Positions 22,000-28,500 of a DNA stretch of 64,000 nucleotides are shown here, one piece after another; position 1 is the first letter of the stretch, and each line of letters starts with the position of its first letter. Both the position numbers and the translations under genes were made by a program. Source of the stretch: Nonomuraea sp. PA05 (lineage in GTDB: Bacteria > Actinomycetota > Actinomycetes > Streptosporangiales > Streptosporangiaceae); NCBI RefSeq assembly GCF_008086045.1, contig NZ_VSEY01000019.1, positions 62,001 through 126,000 on the forward strand, read 5' to 3'. The notes below the pieces were generated by a model. That model saw only the letters and a list, made by a program, of their open reading frames with translations, was not told the DNA's origin and ran no database searches.

Positions 22000-22488
22000 T
22001 CAGGCGTTTCGCCACTCGTCAGTGACACAACCAAGTTCGTAATGCCACCATCCGTTCTCCTGCCCACAGGTCAGAAGCGCCTTGATGCCGGTGAAGTCGG
22101 CGCCGGCGGGTGCATTGAGCGCCACCATGGGGAAGTCCTCGCTGAACGTCTCACCCCCGAGCTCGAACTGCGCGAAACGCTGATGCACCGCGTGGGCACT
22201 GCGTCCCAGCGGGCCGCTCGGAATGGGGACGACGCGGATCGTGCAGTTTCCCGAGGCGCTGACCCGCTCAACGGCCCAGTGCAGTCCGTCCGAGTCGGTC
22301 TGGAACCGCACCACGTCCCCCTCGGCCACGCCGTCCAGGAGGAAGGGAACGTTCTTCACCTGGGCGGCGTCCGCACTGAGCCTGTCAGCCCACAAGCCCT
22401 CGGTGTCTTGCGGGAACCATCCCTCCCGAGGAACGAACCGGAACCAGATCTTGATCTGCTCTACCTCGTCATCCATGACGATCATCAT
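22000..22488 (-). CDS. DUF4265 domain protein
   Basis: A 162-residue protein with the DUF4265 pattern: VEQIKIWFRF near the start, WADRLSADAAQVKNVPFLLDGVAEGDVVRFQ, and a C-terminal EDFPMVALNAPAGADF. The family is cytosolic, often found in polymorphic-toxin or nuclease neighbourhoods, and has no assigned function. ATG 22488; ATG 22476 is also possible. It lies 103 bases upstream of the lipoprotein on the same strand. Confidence 0.75.
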   Translation of the reverse strand: MMIVMDDEVEQIKIWFRFVPREGWFPQDTEGLWADRLSADAAQVKNVPFLLDGVAEGDVVRFQTDSDGLHWAVERVSASGNCTIRVVPIPSGPLGRSAHAVHQRFAQFELGGETFSEDFPMVALNAPAGADFTGIKALLTCGQENGWWHYELGCVTDEWRNA

Positions 22489-22551: not shown

Positions 22552-23091
22552 TCAGACGGTTCGAGCGATTTCCCTCAGCGCGAGTGCCCAGGGGTAGGAA
22601 GAAAAGCGATCACCGCCGGTGCTCGGCGGGTGCGGCTCGAACATGCCAGGCCCGAGCAGGACGCGCACCCCTTCGGAGCGGAGGGACTCAACGCTGCGAA
22701 GGAAGGGGGCACGAGAAGCGAGGGCGCTGTTGACGAAGGGCAGGACGACGACAGGGATGCCGAGCCCTGGAGCCTCGGAGAGGACGCCCAAGGCGTACGT
22801 GTCCGCGGTTCCCTGAGCGAACTTGTTGATCGTGTTGTAGGTGGCCGGAGCCACGATGATCGCGTCCGCGCGAGGTGATCTCGGCTCACCAGGGTTGCGG
22901 TACCGGCTACGGACGGGGCGGCCCGTCTGCTGTTCGAGGCGGGGCACGTCGATGAAGCCCAACGCCGGTGGAGTGGCGATGACCTGGACGGTCCACCCCT
23001 CGCCCTGCGCCAGCGCGACGAGCCGGCCTACGTCTCCGGCCGGGCCGGCCGCGCACACCACGATGGTGAGGATCTTGCCAGGCTCGCTCAC
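22552..23091 (-). CDS. Flavoprotein (PPC decarboxylase-like fold)
   Basis: A 179-residue protein of the flavoprotein/HFCD fold: an N-terminal ILTIVVCAAGPAGDVGRLV and the signature ADAIIVAPATYNTINKFAQGTADTYA, as in phosphopantothenoylcysteine decarboxylase-like FMN proteins. GTG 23091 overlaps the stop of the XRE-TPR gene (GTGA), so both are one operon. It may perform a flavin-dependent decarboxylation or simply bind flavin; context with a radical SAM enzyme and a methyltransferase suggests a peptide or small-molecule modification module. Confidence 0.8.
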   Translation of the reverse strand: MSEPGKILTIVVCAAGPAGDVGRLVALAQGEGWTVQVIATPPALGFIDVPRLEQQTGRPVRSRYRNPGEPRSPRADAIIVAPATYNTINKFAQGTADTYALGVLSEAPGLGIPVVVLPFVNSALASRAPFLRSVESLRSEGVRVLLGPGMFEPHPPSTGGDRFSSYPWALALREIARTV

Positions 23092-24407
23092 GCGCGGGCT
23101 CCGAGGGACGCGGCGTACTCGCGGGCTTCACGGCGCAGGCCGGGTGGCGCGCCGGCCAGGATGTCACCGGCCAGCCGAAGCGGCGCGCCACGGCCCACGA
23201 CCTCTTGCGGTGCCAGCTCACCGGCGGCACGCAGGCTGTGGAGAGCACTCTCGTGCTGTCCCCTCATGAGGAACGCCCGTGAGGTGTCGAGCAGGAGACT
23301 GGCCCTGCGCTCGTCGGCCGGCAAGTTGCCGATCTCGACTCGGCGGGCGTACTCGATGGCCGTACCGGCGTCGCCCAGACGGACGGCGATGTGCACGCGA
23401 TGGCACAGGACGTTGTTGGGCCCGAACGCCGTCCACATGTGGTTCCCGTCGTGCCCGAGCCGGGCGCCGGCGTCCGCGGCCTCGTCCAGGAGTTCGGCGG
23501 TCACGTGCCGTTCGCCGCTGTGCGCGGCGGCGATGGCGCCGCGCAGGAGGAGCGTCCCGTAGACGGAGAGGTCGTCCGGGGATGGGTCGGCCAGTGCGGC
23601 GTCCATACGCAGGGCGGCCTTGCGCGCCACGTCGGCGGCGGTGCGGTGATGTCCGCCGTCCATGAGGGCGTGGGTGATGATGCGAGCGCTCGACCCGATC
23701 ACGAGCGGGTTCTGACTGGCTCGCGCCATCCGCACGCTCCGGTCCGCGGCCAGCCACGCCAGCCCCTTGTCCTCCTGCTTGAGCAGGACCGAGGCGGCGG
23801 CGTGATACGCCTCCGCCGAGAGAGCGTACGCGCGCAGCCGGGCGTCACCTTCCAGGACGGTGCAGGCGACGCGTAGATCGCGTAAGAGCACCGGCAGCCC
23901 GTTGATCACCTGGAAGTAGCGGCAGGCCTGGTAGTTCCGCTTGGCCGCCCCCACCGCATGGTCCAGGGACGGAAGGTCTACGGGGCTGTCAGACGACGGA
24001 GAATGATCGACGAGAACGCCGGCGAGGGCGTCGATCGCGCCACCGGCTCGGGCCGGGTCATCGCAGGCGCCCAGGACCGCGTCGAACAACGCAGCCCCGG
24101 TGAGCCCGACGAACCCGCGGCGTCGCACCTCGTCCGCGTCCTTCCCCAATGCATCGGAACCGGCGGTACACGCATCATTCGCGAGGTTAGCAACCGAGCC
24201 GCCGGCGCGAAGGACGAGTTCCCCATGCGCGTGCACCGCCTGGTCGAGTGCCTGGACCACAGGCATGCTGGGAGCGCACCGTCGGCCGTGTTCAAGGTCG
24301 GAAACGTAGCTCTTGCCGCAGGTCGCCCGGCGAGCGACCTCACGCACGGACAGGCCGGCGCGCAGGCGCAGACGTCGCAGCGCCTCGCCGAACCCTTCCC
24401 TGCCCAT
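23088..24407 (-). CDS. XRE-family regulator with TPR-like C-terminal domain
   Basis: A protein of about 439 residues: an N-terminal Cro/C1 HTH (LRLRAGLSVREVARRATCGKSYVSDLEHGRR) followed by a long Ala/Leu-rich helical-repeat region resembling TPR regulators of actinobacteria. ATG 24407 is preceded by GAGGGAG; the upstream in-frame start adds 13 residues. It is divergent from the radical SAM gene, and an 11-bp tandem repeat in the shared promoter is its likely binding site. Such regulators often control the adjacent flavoprotein and neighbours in response to an unknown peptide or metabolite. Confidence 0.82.
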   Translation of the reverse strand: MGREGFGEALRRLRLRAGLSVREVARRATCGKSYVSDLEHGRRCAPSMPVVQALDQAVHAHGELVLRAGGSVANLANDACTAGSDALGKDADEVRRRGFVGLTGAALFDAVLGACDDPARAGGAIDALAGVLVDHSPSSDSPVDLPSLDHAVGAAKRNYQACRYFQVINGLPVLLRDLRVACTVLEGDARLRAYALSAEAYHAAASVLLKQEDKGLAWLAADRSVRMARASQNPLVIGSSARIITHALMDGGHHRTAADVARKAALRMDAALADPSPDDLSVYGTLLLRGAIAAAHSGERHVTAELLDEAADAGARLGHDGNHMWTAFGPNNVLCHRVHIAVRLGDAGTAIEYARRVEIGNLPADERRASLLLDTSRAFLMRGQHESALHSLRAAGELAPQEVVGRGAPLRLAGDILAGAPPGLRREAREYAASLGARA

Positions 24408-24436
24408 GCGGCACTCCCTCTCGTGTGCGGCGGCGC

Positions 24437-24458
24437 CAGCGGACACTCAGCGGACACT
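24437..24458. promoter_or_regulatory. 11-bp perfect tandem repeat in the XRE/radical SAM promoter
   Basis: CAGCGGACACT occurs twice head to tail (24437-24447 and 24448-24458), one helical turn apart. It lies between the divergent XRE and radical SAM starts and is the best candidate for the XRE binding site. Confidence 0.5.
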
Positions 24459-24554
24459 TCACACCTGGTGGTTACCGACCGTACAGGCAACGCTACCCCT
24501 GCGGAACCGCACCGGCCCGCGCCAATGACACCGCCCTCACGGAAGATCACCATC

Positions 24555-25484
24555 ATGACGGCTGCCCCCGCCATTCCGACCAGGTTCGGCCTGGCCCCCG
24601 TATGGTTCCTCGAACTGGAACTCACCCAGCGATGCCAGATGCGATGCCCCAGCCTCTGCTACGCCGACGCCGGCCCCACCAAGGGCCACGGCACGATGAC
24701 CCGCGCTGACTGGGAGCACCTCATCGACACCGCCCCCGCCGCAGGCATCACGACGGTCCAGTTCATCGGCGGCGAGGCGACCCTGCACCCGGACTTCGTT
24801 CGCCTGGCCGAGCACGCTCTCGGCGTGGGGCTACGCGTGCAGGTGTACTCCAACCTGATCCGCGTCACCACCCCTCTATGGGAGCTGTACTCGCACCCGA
24901 ACGTGACGCTGGCGACGTCGTACTACAGCGACATGTCCGCAGAACACGACAAGGTCACTGGCCGCGAGGGCAGCCACGCCCAGACTCGCGCCAACATCGT
25001 GGCCGCGCTGGAGCGCTCCATCCCGCTCAAGGTCGCCGTCGTCGATCTCGGCGAGAAGGGTCAGCGCGCCCACGAGGCACGCGCCGAGATGATCGCACTC
25101 GGCCTGCCCCGCGTCGGCCCCGTGGACCGGGTCCGCGCGGTCGGCCGCGCCACCGGTCACCTAAGTAAGGAGCCGGACGTCGGTGAGCTGTGCGGCCAGT
25201 GCGGCGACGGCCGCGCCGCCGTCTCCTGGGACGGCGACGTACGCATGTGCGTCCTGTCCCGCTTCCTGCCCTCCGCCGGGAACGTCCACACCACCCCGCT
25301 GGGCGACCTCCTCGACGGTCCGGCTTGGCACGAGTTGCTCGCGCGAGTGCCTCGCCGACGAGACAGCGGCTGCAAACCGTCGTCAGACAGCAACGACTGC
25401 AAACCGGCCGAAACCACCTGCGAAGGCAACGCCCTCGTGCTGCCCGTTCCCGCCCCTCGCCTCCCCTCGGAGGGAAACCGGTGA
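24555..25484 (+). CDS. Radical SAM protein with CX3CX3C cluster motif and Cys-rich C-terminus
   Basis: A radical SAM barrel of about 309 residues. LELTQRCQMRCPSLCYAD carries the cluster cysteines spaced CX3CX3C instead of the usual CX3CX2C; QFIGGEATLHPDF is the SAM-binding GGE motif. The C-terminus has ELCGQCGDG...MCVLSR, a SPASM-like auxiliary cluster region, then extra cysteines (SGCKP, NDCKP, TTCEG). ATG 24555 has GGAAG upstream; ATG 24525 is in frame. The stop overlaps the methyltransferase GTG (GTGA). Together with that gene, the flavoprotein and the XRE gene it forms a compact module, possibly RiPP-like maturation; no precursor peptide was found. Confidence 0.85.
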   Translation: MTAAPAIPTRFGLAPVWFLELELTQRCQMRCPSLCYADAGPTKGHGTMTRADWEHLIDTAPAAGITTVQFIGGEATLHPDFVRLAEHALGVGLRVQVYSNLIRVTTPLWELYSHPNVTLATSYYSDMSAEHDKVTGREGSHAQTRANIVAALERSIPLKVAVVDLGEKGQRAHEARAEMIALGLPRVGPVDRVRAVGRATGHLSKEPDVGELCGQCGDGRAAVSWDGDVRMCVLSRFLPSAGNVHTTPLGDLLDGPAWHELLARVPRRRDSGCKPSSDSNDCKPAETTCEGNALVLPVPAPRLPSEGNR

Positions 25485-26662
25485 CCAGCACGGACGCGGC
25501 GAGCGAAGATTCGCCCATGCACTCCTGGAGAGACCGAGCGCGCCACCTCGCCGGCACGATGACCCCGCCCGGCTCGCGATGGCGCGAACCGGTCGCCCGC
25601 ACCCCACGCCACCCGTTCGTCCCCCGCTGGTGGGCGAGCACGCCGGACGGGTGGAAGCTACGCGTCGGCAGCGACGACCACGAACGATGGCTGGCCGCCG
25701 CCTACCGCGACTGGACCCTCGTCACCCGGGTCTCCGGCGTCCACGCCGACCACGCCGGCCCCGGCGCCCTCCTCCATGGATCGCCTACGTCGTCGAGCAC
25801 ACTGCCCGGCCTGCTCGTGAGCATGTACCGGCATGCTTCGCTCGACGACCGGTCCGTCGTCCTGGACGTGGGCACCGGCACCGGCTACGGCACGGCCCTC
25901 CTGTGCGCCCGCCTCGGGCATGCGCGGGTCACGGCGATCGACGTGGAGCCGTACCTCACAGAGGCTGCCGACCGGCGGCTGGACGAGTTGGGCTACCACC
26001 CGGCCTTTCTGACGGCGGACGCCACCGGCCCGATCGACTGGGAAGGGGACCGGATCGTCGCCACCGTGGGGGTGAAGCCGATCCCCGCGTCCTGGCTGCA
26101 CGGGCTGCGGACGGGCGGGCGGCTGGTGACGACGATCGCCGGCACGAGCCTGATCATCACCGCCGACAAGCAGGAGGACGGCGGGGCGGTCGGCCGGGTC
26201 GAGTGGGATCGTGCCGGGTTCATGCGCACCCGGTCCGGCGCCGACTATCCGGCTCGCGGCGAGCTGCTCGCCGTCCTCGCCCGGGCTCGCGTGGAGGACG
26301 GGGAGCAGGTGGAGGCCAGCCCGTACCCGGTGATGGACGTGGTCGAGGCTTGGGACGTGGACACGATGATGGAGCTGCTCGCGCCGGGGATCGAGCATCG
26401 GTTCATCACCTACGACGACAAGGCCGATCGGGTCGCGCTCATGGCTCATGAGGACGGGTCGTGGGTTCGGGCCGAGGAGCGTGACGGGAAGGTGGTCGTC
26501 CATCAGGGTGGGCCGCGCCGGCTTCATGACCTGCTGGATCGGGTGCGGGAGCAGTGGCTCAGGGAGGGTGAGCTGCCGATTCGCGGTGCGAAGGTGGCCG
26601 TCAGCCCGGCGGGGGTGATCAGCCTGCGGCGGGGGAACTGGACGGCGGGCATCGGCGAGTAG
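25481..26662 (+). CDS. PCMT-like SAM-dependent methyltransferase
   Basis: A 393-residue protein: an N-terminal extension with HPFVPRWW, then a class I methyltransferase domain (VVLDVGTGTGYGTALLCARLG around residues 125-145; VTAIDVEPY), similar to protein-L-isoaspartate O-methyltransferase homologues found in peptide-maturation systems such as FxLD and ATP-grasp types. The C-terminal half holds two further beta-rich segments. GTG 25481 follows GGAGGG at six bases and overlaps the radical SAM stop. It probably acts on the same substrate. Confidence 0.82.
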   Translation: MTSTDAASEDSPMHSWRDRARHLAGTMTPPGSRWREPVARTPRHPFVPRWWASTPDGWKLRVGSDDHERWLAAAYRDWTLVTRVSGVHADHAGPGALLHGSPTSSSTLPGLLVSMYRHASLDDRSVVLDVGTGTGYGTALLCARLGHARVTAIDVEPYLTEAADRRLDELGYHPAFLTADATGPIDWEGDRIVATVGVKPIPASWLHGLRTGGRLVTTIAGTSLIITADKQEDGGAVGRVEWDRAGFMRTRSGADYPARGELLAVLARARVEDGEQVEASPYPVMDVVEAWDVDTMMELLAPGIEHRFITYDDKADRVALMAHEDGSWVRAEERDGKVVVHQGGPRRLHDLLDRVREQWLREGELPIRGAKVAVSPAGVISLRRGNWTAGIGE

Positions 26663-26789: not shown

Positions 26790-27075
26790 GTGAGCGAAGT
26801 GGGAGAGCGTAGGACTTGGGCTGAGAAGAGATCCGAGGTCATGAGCCGTCCGGGGGCCGGAGCGGCGTATGAAGCGGCCAGGATCCGGTTCGAGCTGGGT
26901 GTGGCCGTCAGGCTGCGGCGGGAGCAGTCGAGGCTGAGCCAAACGGAGCTGGCGGAGCGCATCGGGCTGGAACGACCGGCGGTTGCGGGATTCGAGGCAG
27001 GGAAACCATGAGCGGCTTCTGCGGCCAAGGCTTGCGGCCAAGGCTGAACGGCATCTCCACGTGCCAGTCGATGGA
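26790..27075 (+). pseudogene. Frameshifted XRE/HigA-like regulator
   Basis: The first frame encodes a 73-residue protein with YEAARIRFELGVAVRLRREQ and the HTH SQTELAERIGLERPAVAGFEAGKP, then stops, although HigA-type regulators continue for about 25 residues. The next frame continues with a plausible remainder, ending RHLHVPVDG. A 13-bp tandem duplication (TGCGGCCAAGGCT) occurs there, and one frameshift near 26985-27005 would join the parts. Either a pseudogene or a sequence error. No adjacent toxin gene is visible. Confidence 0.5.
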
Positions 27076-28132: not shown

Positions 28133-28500
28133 ACTCCGCACCCTAAGCCGGTGAAGTCCGGCATGCGAGCCATTTCGGCGCGCTTGCGGGGTGAAGCCGG
28201 GCCCGCTCAGGCGCACGAGTCACTTCGGCTCTCTCGCGAGGTGAGGCCAGACCCGCCCCGGCGCACAAGCCACTACAGCACTCTCGCGGGCGAGGCGGGG
28301 CGAGGCGGGGCGGGGCGAGGCGAGGCGGGGCAGGGCGAGGCAGGGCGAGGCAGGGCGAGGCAGGGCGGGGCGGGGCGAGGCAGGGCGGGGCGAGGCAGGG
28401 CGGGGCGAGGCAGGGCGGGGCGAGGCAGGGCGGGGCGAGGCAGGGCGAGGCAGGGCGAAGGGAAGCGAGGCCGGACCGGCCCCGGCGCACGAGTCACTTC
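28133..28500. repeat. Degenerate ~50-bp repeats copying the ngcG 3' end
   Basis: GGCGCACGAGTCACTTC is present at 28484-28500, where it includes the ngcG stop codon, and again identically at 28210-28226. A diverged copy begins near 28260, and a more diverged relative near 28160. Unit spacing is roughly 50 bp outside the central pentamer array. No gene is present in this interval. Confidence 0.7.
28291..28455. repeat. CRRGG pentamer array (33 units)
   Basis: 165 bp composed entirely of CGAGG, CGGGG and CAGGG pentamers, with a few decayed units after it. The plus strand is purine-rich with closely spaced G-runs, so G-quadruplex or R-loop formation is plausible. It separates ngcG from the APH-family gene, both on the minus strand. 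Confidence 0.95.

Follow-up and report, generated by a model that had tools for sequence, protein, structure and literature searches.

The pairing of a radical S-adenosylmethionine (rSAM) enzyme with a PAMT is already in print. PAMTs turn Asp, which is often part of a cyclic or hairpin-like peptide, into isoaspartate via aspartimide (PMC10787088), and Lee et al. (2023), in the part of their paper that deals with two-gene rSAM+PAMT clusters, report 249 of them and no neighbouring genes for a precursor or substrate protein (PMC10787088). Here we describe such a pair in a stretch of 64,000 nucleotides from Nonomuraea sp. PA05 (contig NZ_VSEY01000019.1, positions 62,001 to 126,000; "the window" below means this whole stretch). 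We propose that the two genes form a system for post-translational maturation and that the rSAM protein would bear the target peptide at its own C-terminus, as a tail, a reading drawn from sequence comparison to which we give a probability of about 0.6.

By the description given for them, the clusters of Lee et al. have the same two-gene layout as the window and a PIMT-type domain that is extended at its C-terminal end (PMC10787088). The present system differs in that the tail is proposed as the substrate and in that some sister loci are paired with kinase-like genes, the comparison being one of type, since the loci studied here may or may not be among their 249 clusters. In the imiditides and pamtides, including the type II zinc-hairpin cysimiditides, a PAMT likewise acts on an Asp between Cys motifs in a hairpin, according to the relevant sections of a 2026 review of aspartimide-containing ribosomally synthesized and post-translationally modified peptides (RiPPs; PMC13001092); a term search found neither "radical" nor "rSAM" in the main text of that review. 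Those peptides are encoded by a separate small precursor gene, in two-gene clusters of precursor and PAMT for which the pertinent part of PMC10787088 describes no other primary enzyme, whereas no conserved precursor gene of this type was found beside the PAMT-like gene in the neighbourhoods that we scanned. The borosins (OphMA) offer a precedent for a maturase with a fused precursor, although the borosin maturase, as portrayed where PMC11285071 treats it, is an N-methyltransferase with a fused core and the tailed protein here is an rSAM protein. In the openly licensed PubMed Central literature we found no report of a Cys-x-Pro (CxP) tail or of an rSAM enzyme with a fused precursor; a report elsewhere, or within the full text of these papers, is possible.

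The radical SAM protein and its CxP tail

The rSAM gene lies on the plus strand (24555..25484, with an ATG start at 24555) and encodes 309 amino acids (aa). The protein passes the Pfam cut-offs for both PF04055 (35.9 bits, cut-off 29.5) and the SPASM domain PF13186 (26.6 bits, cut-off 21.5), and among the NCBIfam matches listed (25 of 36 models) none reaches its cut-off. Its nearest solved relatives by sequence are SPASM rSAM enzymes, the closest being the sactipeptide maturase SkfB (profile E 2.2e-23). SkfB and other SPASM rSAM enzymes act on a separate precursor peptide, and to our knowledge none of them has a fused CxP tail. Only one such rSAM is encoded in the source genome, where a search gave a single full match besides one at 27% identity. 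The SPASM/twitch cysteines C213, C216 and C232 (25191..25250) are invariant in 26 aligned members.

The cluster motif of the protein, C27-X3-C31-X3-C35 (24633..24659), has one more codon than that of most homologues. An earlier reading of this DNA, made without database searches (the sequence-only reading), had singled out the CX3CX3C spacing, which is real in the window but is not a family trait. Among 159 sequences including the window's, 143 read CX3CX2C, the canonical spacing, three read CX3CX3C and 13 are unreadable, so that the longer form is ruled out as a family hallmark (3/146 readable sequences). Since two other homologues, L103 and L252, share CX3CX3C with the window in the form C-P-x-x-C, the Pro following the second Cys, a plain sequencing error is nevertheless unlikely; all three carriers are paired with a methyltransferase gene. 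BlsE was considered as a precedent for the longer spacing and rejected, since the aligned sequence of its solved structure shows CX3CX2C.

In the homologues the rSAM core is conserved and is joined, past the SPASM part, through a linker of variable sequence to a Cys-x-Pro tail; in most members the next gene, directly downstream, encodes a second modifying enzyme. In the window the tail comprises residues 273-309 (25371..25481, plus strand), begins with the core CKPSSDSNDCKP (25371..25406) and contains C273, C282 and C289. The Cys-rich nature that had been noted for this C-terminus therefore stands, but what had been called SPASM-like we reread as the likeliest substrate, on account of its invariant CxP motifs and its association with the partner genes. 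Cys-x-Pro accounts for 569 of the 585 cysteines in 131 tails, and two CxP motifs are invariant among the 26 aligned members, which are diverse. The number of CxP units ranges from 2 to 12 in tails having any, and in L255, L256, L263 and L264 the tail unit occurs in two or three tandem copies with variable spacers, an arrangement that resembles multi-core RiPP precursors. The candidate target of the methyltransferase is the Asp of an Asp-Ser pair, Asp278 (25386..25388, plus strand), as judged from the motif D[GST]...CxP of methyltransferase-paired tails, of which SSDSNDCKP is the window's example.

The tail is coding and under purifying selection. Nonsynonymous change (dN) is below synonymous change (dS) in the tails of 17 of 17 close pairs (0 vs 0.47 in L068/L141 and 0.045 vs 1.1 in L114/L123), whereas for the 25-residue linker dN equals or is higher than dS in four of the 17. 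A search of the 162 loci that were fetched (1.78 Mb) for the pattern C.P.{0,6}D[GS][NSGDAR]DC.P gave 62 matches in rSAM open reading frames (ORFs) and five elsewhere, and the five outside matches (L033, L101, L106, L196 and L266) all come from loci with a broken rSAM gene.

Breaks of the rSAM gene by a frameshift, stop or gap were seen in L033, L091, L101, L106, L139, L182, L196 and L266. The tail lies in another frame or ORF in L106, L139, L182 and L196, and in L106 the methyltransferase was not detected either; the broken homologues may represent either decay or assembly error. In L038 the methyltransferase gene is found about 3 kb upstream of the rSAM gene and not downstream, and the rSAM protein has lost cysteines from its radical SAM motif, yet has kept the tail motif DGNDCRP.

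Partner genes and their relation to the tail

Homologues of the rSAM protein were found in 38 of the 150 family genomes searched and in 87 of 297 from the order (genomes partly shared with the family set), in 33 of 394 genomes of the class, and in 15 of 35 and 34 of 200 genomes of two other families. Among the first 41 loci besides the window, 22 have a methyltransferase gene directly downstream of the rSAM gene, its product 46-66% identical to that of the window, and one more, L038, has it some 3 kb upstream. In the window this gene (25481..26662, plus strand, GTG start, 393 aa) overlaps the rSAM stop by 4 bases (GTGA), and its product matches PF01135 (E 6.6e-14), confirming that a PCMT-like methyltransferase follows with overlap, as had been read from the sequence. 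Compared by profile with PIMT structures, the protein gives a best E of 1e-23. Its best named relative is the methyltransferase of ATP-grasp peptide maturase systems (TIGR04188), matched over residues 31-377 (E 3.7e-75) with a score of 253.5 bits that is below the cut-off of 380; the adjoining gene here is an rSAM gene. Two traits of PAMTs are present, namely a PIMT catalytic domain and a C-terminal extension of more than 100 aa (393 aa, with the PCMT match ending at residue 237), and the protein resembles the PAMTs, which are Asp O-methyltransferases from RiPP pathways. Asp-bearing rSAM tails go together with methyltransferases of two lineages that are about 25% identical to each other, L117 being an exception.

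The rSAM gene and the PAMT-like gene constitute a two-gene unit that is conserved, and this is most likely a compact maturation system for a peptide or protein. Such a system had been suggested before, but with the flavoprotein and XRE genes of the window included, and these are judged not to belong to it (see below). Scans of the neighbourhoods, in which ORFs that are very short or little conserved would be overlooked, turned up no conserved ORF for a separate precursor next to the pair. The sequence-only reading had likewise seen no precursor beside the genes; the likeliest substrate, however, would now be the rSAM protein's own Cys-rich tail. Upstream genes named by eye as DUF6879, DUF397, XRE and HATPase types were rejected as substrates, being present in some loci only, and L102 was rejected as an rSAM-methyltransferase fusion because a stop codon separates the two.

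Beside some rSAM homologues the methyltransferase gene is replaced by a kinase-like gene family, K4, and beside others a second kinase-like family, K7, is found, mostly together with an AAA-ATPase gene (f8). One of six K7 members matches Pfam APH (E 4.2e-6), and the six aligned members share an invariant DLHWxN...DWE. The Pfam matches of K4 are weak (APH 0.006 and RIO1 0.0017, each in one of seven members). Searches of solved structures with the kinase-like alignments had no significant hit (best E 0.33 and 0.57), and the profiles of K4 and K7 compare weakly with each other (probability 10%). In the 119-row set used for the tree, 65 rows are labelled as methyltransferase-paired, 27 as K4, 17 as K7 and 10 as without a detected partner; one of these ten, L035, does have a methyltransferase but was counted as partnerless in the tree and in the first-sample motif counts.

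The tails differ with the partner. In the first sample, D[GST].{0,4}CxP is present in 61 of 65 methyltransferase-paired tails, 13 of 27 K4 tails and none of 17 K7 tails, and [ST]xCxP[RK] in all 27 K4 tails, one of 65 methyltransferase-paired tails and two of 17 K7 tails. The K7 rows L139 and L182, whose tails are in another ORF, were scored as without a motif. In K4 tails [ST]xCxP[RK] sits at the extreme C-terminus, 1-2 residues from the stop, and in the 37 K4 tails of both samples the position two before the last Cys holds Ser in 34 cases and Thr in two; K7 tails carry CxP runs. Since the Asp motif also occurs in 13 of the 27 K4 tails, Asp alone does not separate the partners, and it was rejected as a partner marker in favour of a two-part rule combining D[GST].{0,4}CxP with [ST]xCxP[RK].

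This rule was fixed in writing before the new loci were fetched. The new sample comprised 33 loci of one family, 24 with a detected partner, 8 without and one (L266) without a readable SPASM part. The rule was correct in 23 of the 24 scorable loci (12/12 with a methyltransferase and 11/12 with a kinase-like gene, the miss being L247), with a one-sided Fisher p of 4.8e-6 in which kinship is not corrected for. In L237, one of the eight partnerless new loci, a K4-like gene was seen downstream. Pooled agreement with the rule is 127 of 132 rows, a figure that includes the sample on which the rule was built; the 132 are those of 149 rows that had both traits. For this pooled count the label of L035 was changed to methyltransferase-paired, that of L237 to K4 and that of L250 to K7, while L265, L266 and L268 were excluded. 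A quick tree of the pooled set has at least five changes between methyltransferase and kinase-like partners and 10 changes of the tail trait. The best showing of a tail matching its partner comes from the sisters L197, with a kinase-like partner and a Ser/Thr/Lys-rich tail, and L198, with a methyltransferase and the tail DDSACGPDSEACGP, a contrast that is consistent with such matching.

A distinct rSAM subgroup is formed by L187, L189, L240, L259 and L260, which have the near-identical tail CTPPQFLPMCGPCGPCVPSVGHCDP and no detected PAMT or kinase-like gene. Immediately downstream of the rSAM gene in L187, L240, L259 and L260 (all four read) is a conserved protein of 106-121 aa, possibly a further type of partner.

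Proposed maturation of the tail and its alternatives

We propose that the rSAM core would modify the tail cysteines, in cis or in a dimer, perhaps into thioether links by analogy with SkfB, and that the modified cysteines would close a hairpin between two CxP units. The PAMT-like enzyme would methylate an Asp held in the hairpin (Asp278 in the window), and the aspartyl methyl ester would close to an aspartimide, which would then open to isoaspartate. In the sister systems a kinase-like enzyme would take the place of the PAMT and act on Ser or Thr at the same position, its product being a phosphorylated or dehydrated residue. The modified tail may either be released by cleavage, as a peptide product, or be retained as part of a modified protein. 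For the family as a whole we lean, slightly less firmly than for the pair itself, towards a RiPP-like class whose rSAM maturases each have a CxP precursor of their own fused to them, multi-core in some cases, and in which exchangeable second enzymes (two PAMT-like Asp methyltransferase lineages and two kinase-like families) would finish one built-in hairpin at Asp or Ser/Thr. AlphaFold models of the two window proteins, made from two-row alignments, have confidence scores (pLDDT) of 48 and 37, too low for the models to be informative.

Several observations weigh against this proposal. The kinase identity of the K4 and K7 partners is weakly indicated by their sequences. The tail motif was first spotted by eye on the first sample, which already held 8 loci of the family from which the new loci were drawn, so that the independence of the new sample is incomplete, and L245 and L246, which have identical tails and belong to one genome, were both counted in it. 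The rule fails in L093, L109, L117, L194 and L247, and L117 lacks an Asp in the expected loop. The 13 K4 tails that also match the Asp motif do so in an earlier loop or through D-S-x-C in the last loop. Furthermore, the K4 rows form one clade in the tree of rSAM cores, which was built, with the tail removed, on 119 of 127 loci (those with an unreadable SPASM part or a core of less than 200 aa were excluded, and L101 by hand). Supported branches of the trees provide three independent pairs, in which the tail changes with the partner in 2.9 cases on average and in the opposite direction in none. Since partner switches are this few, no significance is reachable beyond common descent, and the comparison is consistent with, but not significant for, a tail that follows its partner beyond shared ancestry. 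The CxP tail is kept in 9 of the 10 rows without a detected partner and is therefore not tied to the methyltransferase, K4 and K7 alone, and in many pairs the dN/dS of the tail is no lower than that of the core. The window's own rSAM copy, moreover, deviates from most members both in the extra residue of its cluster motif and in having GGEAT in place of GGEPT, and with these two deviations it may work poorly.

The tail could instead bind a metal or cluster, or serve as a docking element that recruits the partner, with the true substrate encoded elsewhere. Cys-rich ends are common in SPASM proteins, two CxP motifs invariant in 26 members are what would be expected of ligands, and a docking peptide would follow the partner just as a substrate would. 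However, whole CxP units are duplicated, and since their number varies from 2 to 12, constitutive cluster ligands are not expected; in addition, the residue that depends on the partner is the very one that the partner's chemistry would need (Asp vs Ser/Thr). We regard a ligand or docking role as unlikely, though it is the most serious competitor. It is more doubtful still that the pair belongs to a conventional RiPP pathway with its precursor elsewhere in the genome and the tail incidental. Unlinked precursors exist in principle, and the lack of a conserved precursor ORF adjoining the pair, in scans blind to very short or poorly conserved ORFs, fits with one. Against this, the tail pattern lies in rSAM ORFs in 62 cases and elsewhere in five, each with a broken rSAM gene, within the 162 loci searched (a genome-wide search was not made), and Lee et al., in their account of the 249 pairs, also found no precursor beside them (PMC10787088).

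The sequence-only reading had joined the rSAM pair to the divergent flavoprotein/XRE pair as a four-gene module, with the flavoprotein adding a third modification chemistry. One other locus, L184/L321, belongs to another family and shows the identical layout, which speaks for a module, but the co-occurrence of the four genes is otherwise not conserved. Of 120 genomes from the family, 95 contain a match to the flavoprotein. Among 29 loci with 1.5 kb flanks, drawn from the best matches in these 95 genomes, 19 have an XRE homologue as a neighbour and none has an rSAM or methyltransferase gene. From the side of the rSAM gene, the flavoprotein is nearby in two of 160 loci, the window and L184, where 43 of the 160 had less than 2.2 kb of upstream sequence. 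When 20 rSAM loci were extended upstream, the flavoprotein appeared in L184's own (L321, deliberately included) and was absent from the other 19. The four-gene module was rejected: this distribution largely refutes it, and we consider it very improbable. The flavoprotein and XRE genes are rather a pair of their own, a common one, which is at most a local neighbour of the rSAM pair.

The divergent pair, the tandem repeat and what a fused tail would mean

The flavoprotein gene (PF02441, E 1.2e-12; 22552..23091) and the gene for an NsdA-like regulator with an XRE helix-turn-helix and TPR-type repeats (23088..24446; PF13560 E 1.8e-13; NF053720 at 41.7 bits, below the cut-off of 75) are both on the minus strand and overlap by 4 bases. 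The two overlapping gene pairs of the sequence-only reading are thus confirmed, and they stand back to back. Both genes are judged to be outside the rSAM system, the flavoprotein by its distribution, and the XRE-TPR protein is possibly a local divergent regulator.

The tandem repeat that had been noticed between the gene pairs is also present, as two perfect copies of CAGCGGACACT, 11 bases each, at 24437..24458. It lies inside the XRE ORF if this starts at the GTG at 24446 and upstream of it if the start is the ATG at 24407, and its role as an operator is putative. No third exact AGCGGACACT was found in the window. With at most one mismatch allowed, the CAGCGGACACT unit has three matches in the window against 4.84 expected and is not over-represented; it is the tandem arrangement that is noteworthy.

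The window contains no detected tRNA and no Rfam family at threshold. Adjoining the flavoprotein gene is that of a DUF4265 protein (PF14085 E 3.8e-34; 22000-22488). A short XRE-like ORF of 73 aa, identified by eye at 26790-27011, stops at or just past the helix-turn-helix and looks truncated. A dense GC-rich tandem repeat of 10 or 15 bases occupies 28288-28458, between ORFs that by eye are ABC permease-like and phosphotransferase-like.

If the rSAM protein does carry its own substrate, each such gene would encode both an enzyme and a peptide, and the peptide could be read directly from the gene. The fused-precursor logic of the borosins would thereby be extended to radical enzymes, and one scaffold would be seen to serve Asp methylation in some systems and, perhaps, Ser/Thr phosphorylation in others. 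It would also answer an open published question, that of the substrate of the rSAM+PAMT pairs.

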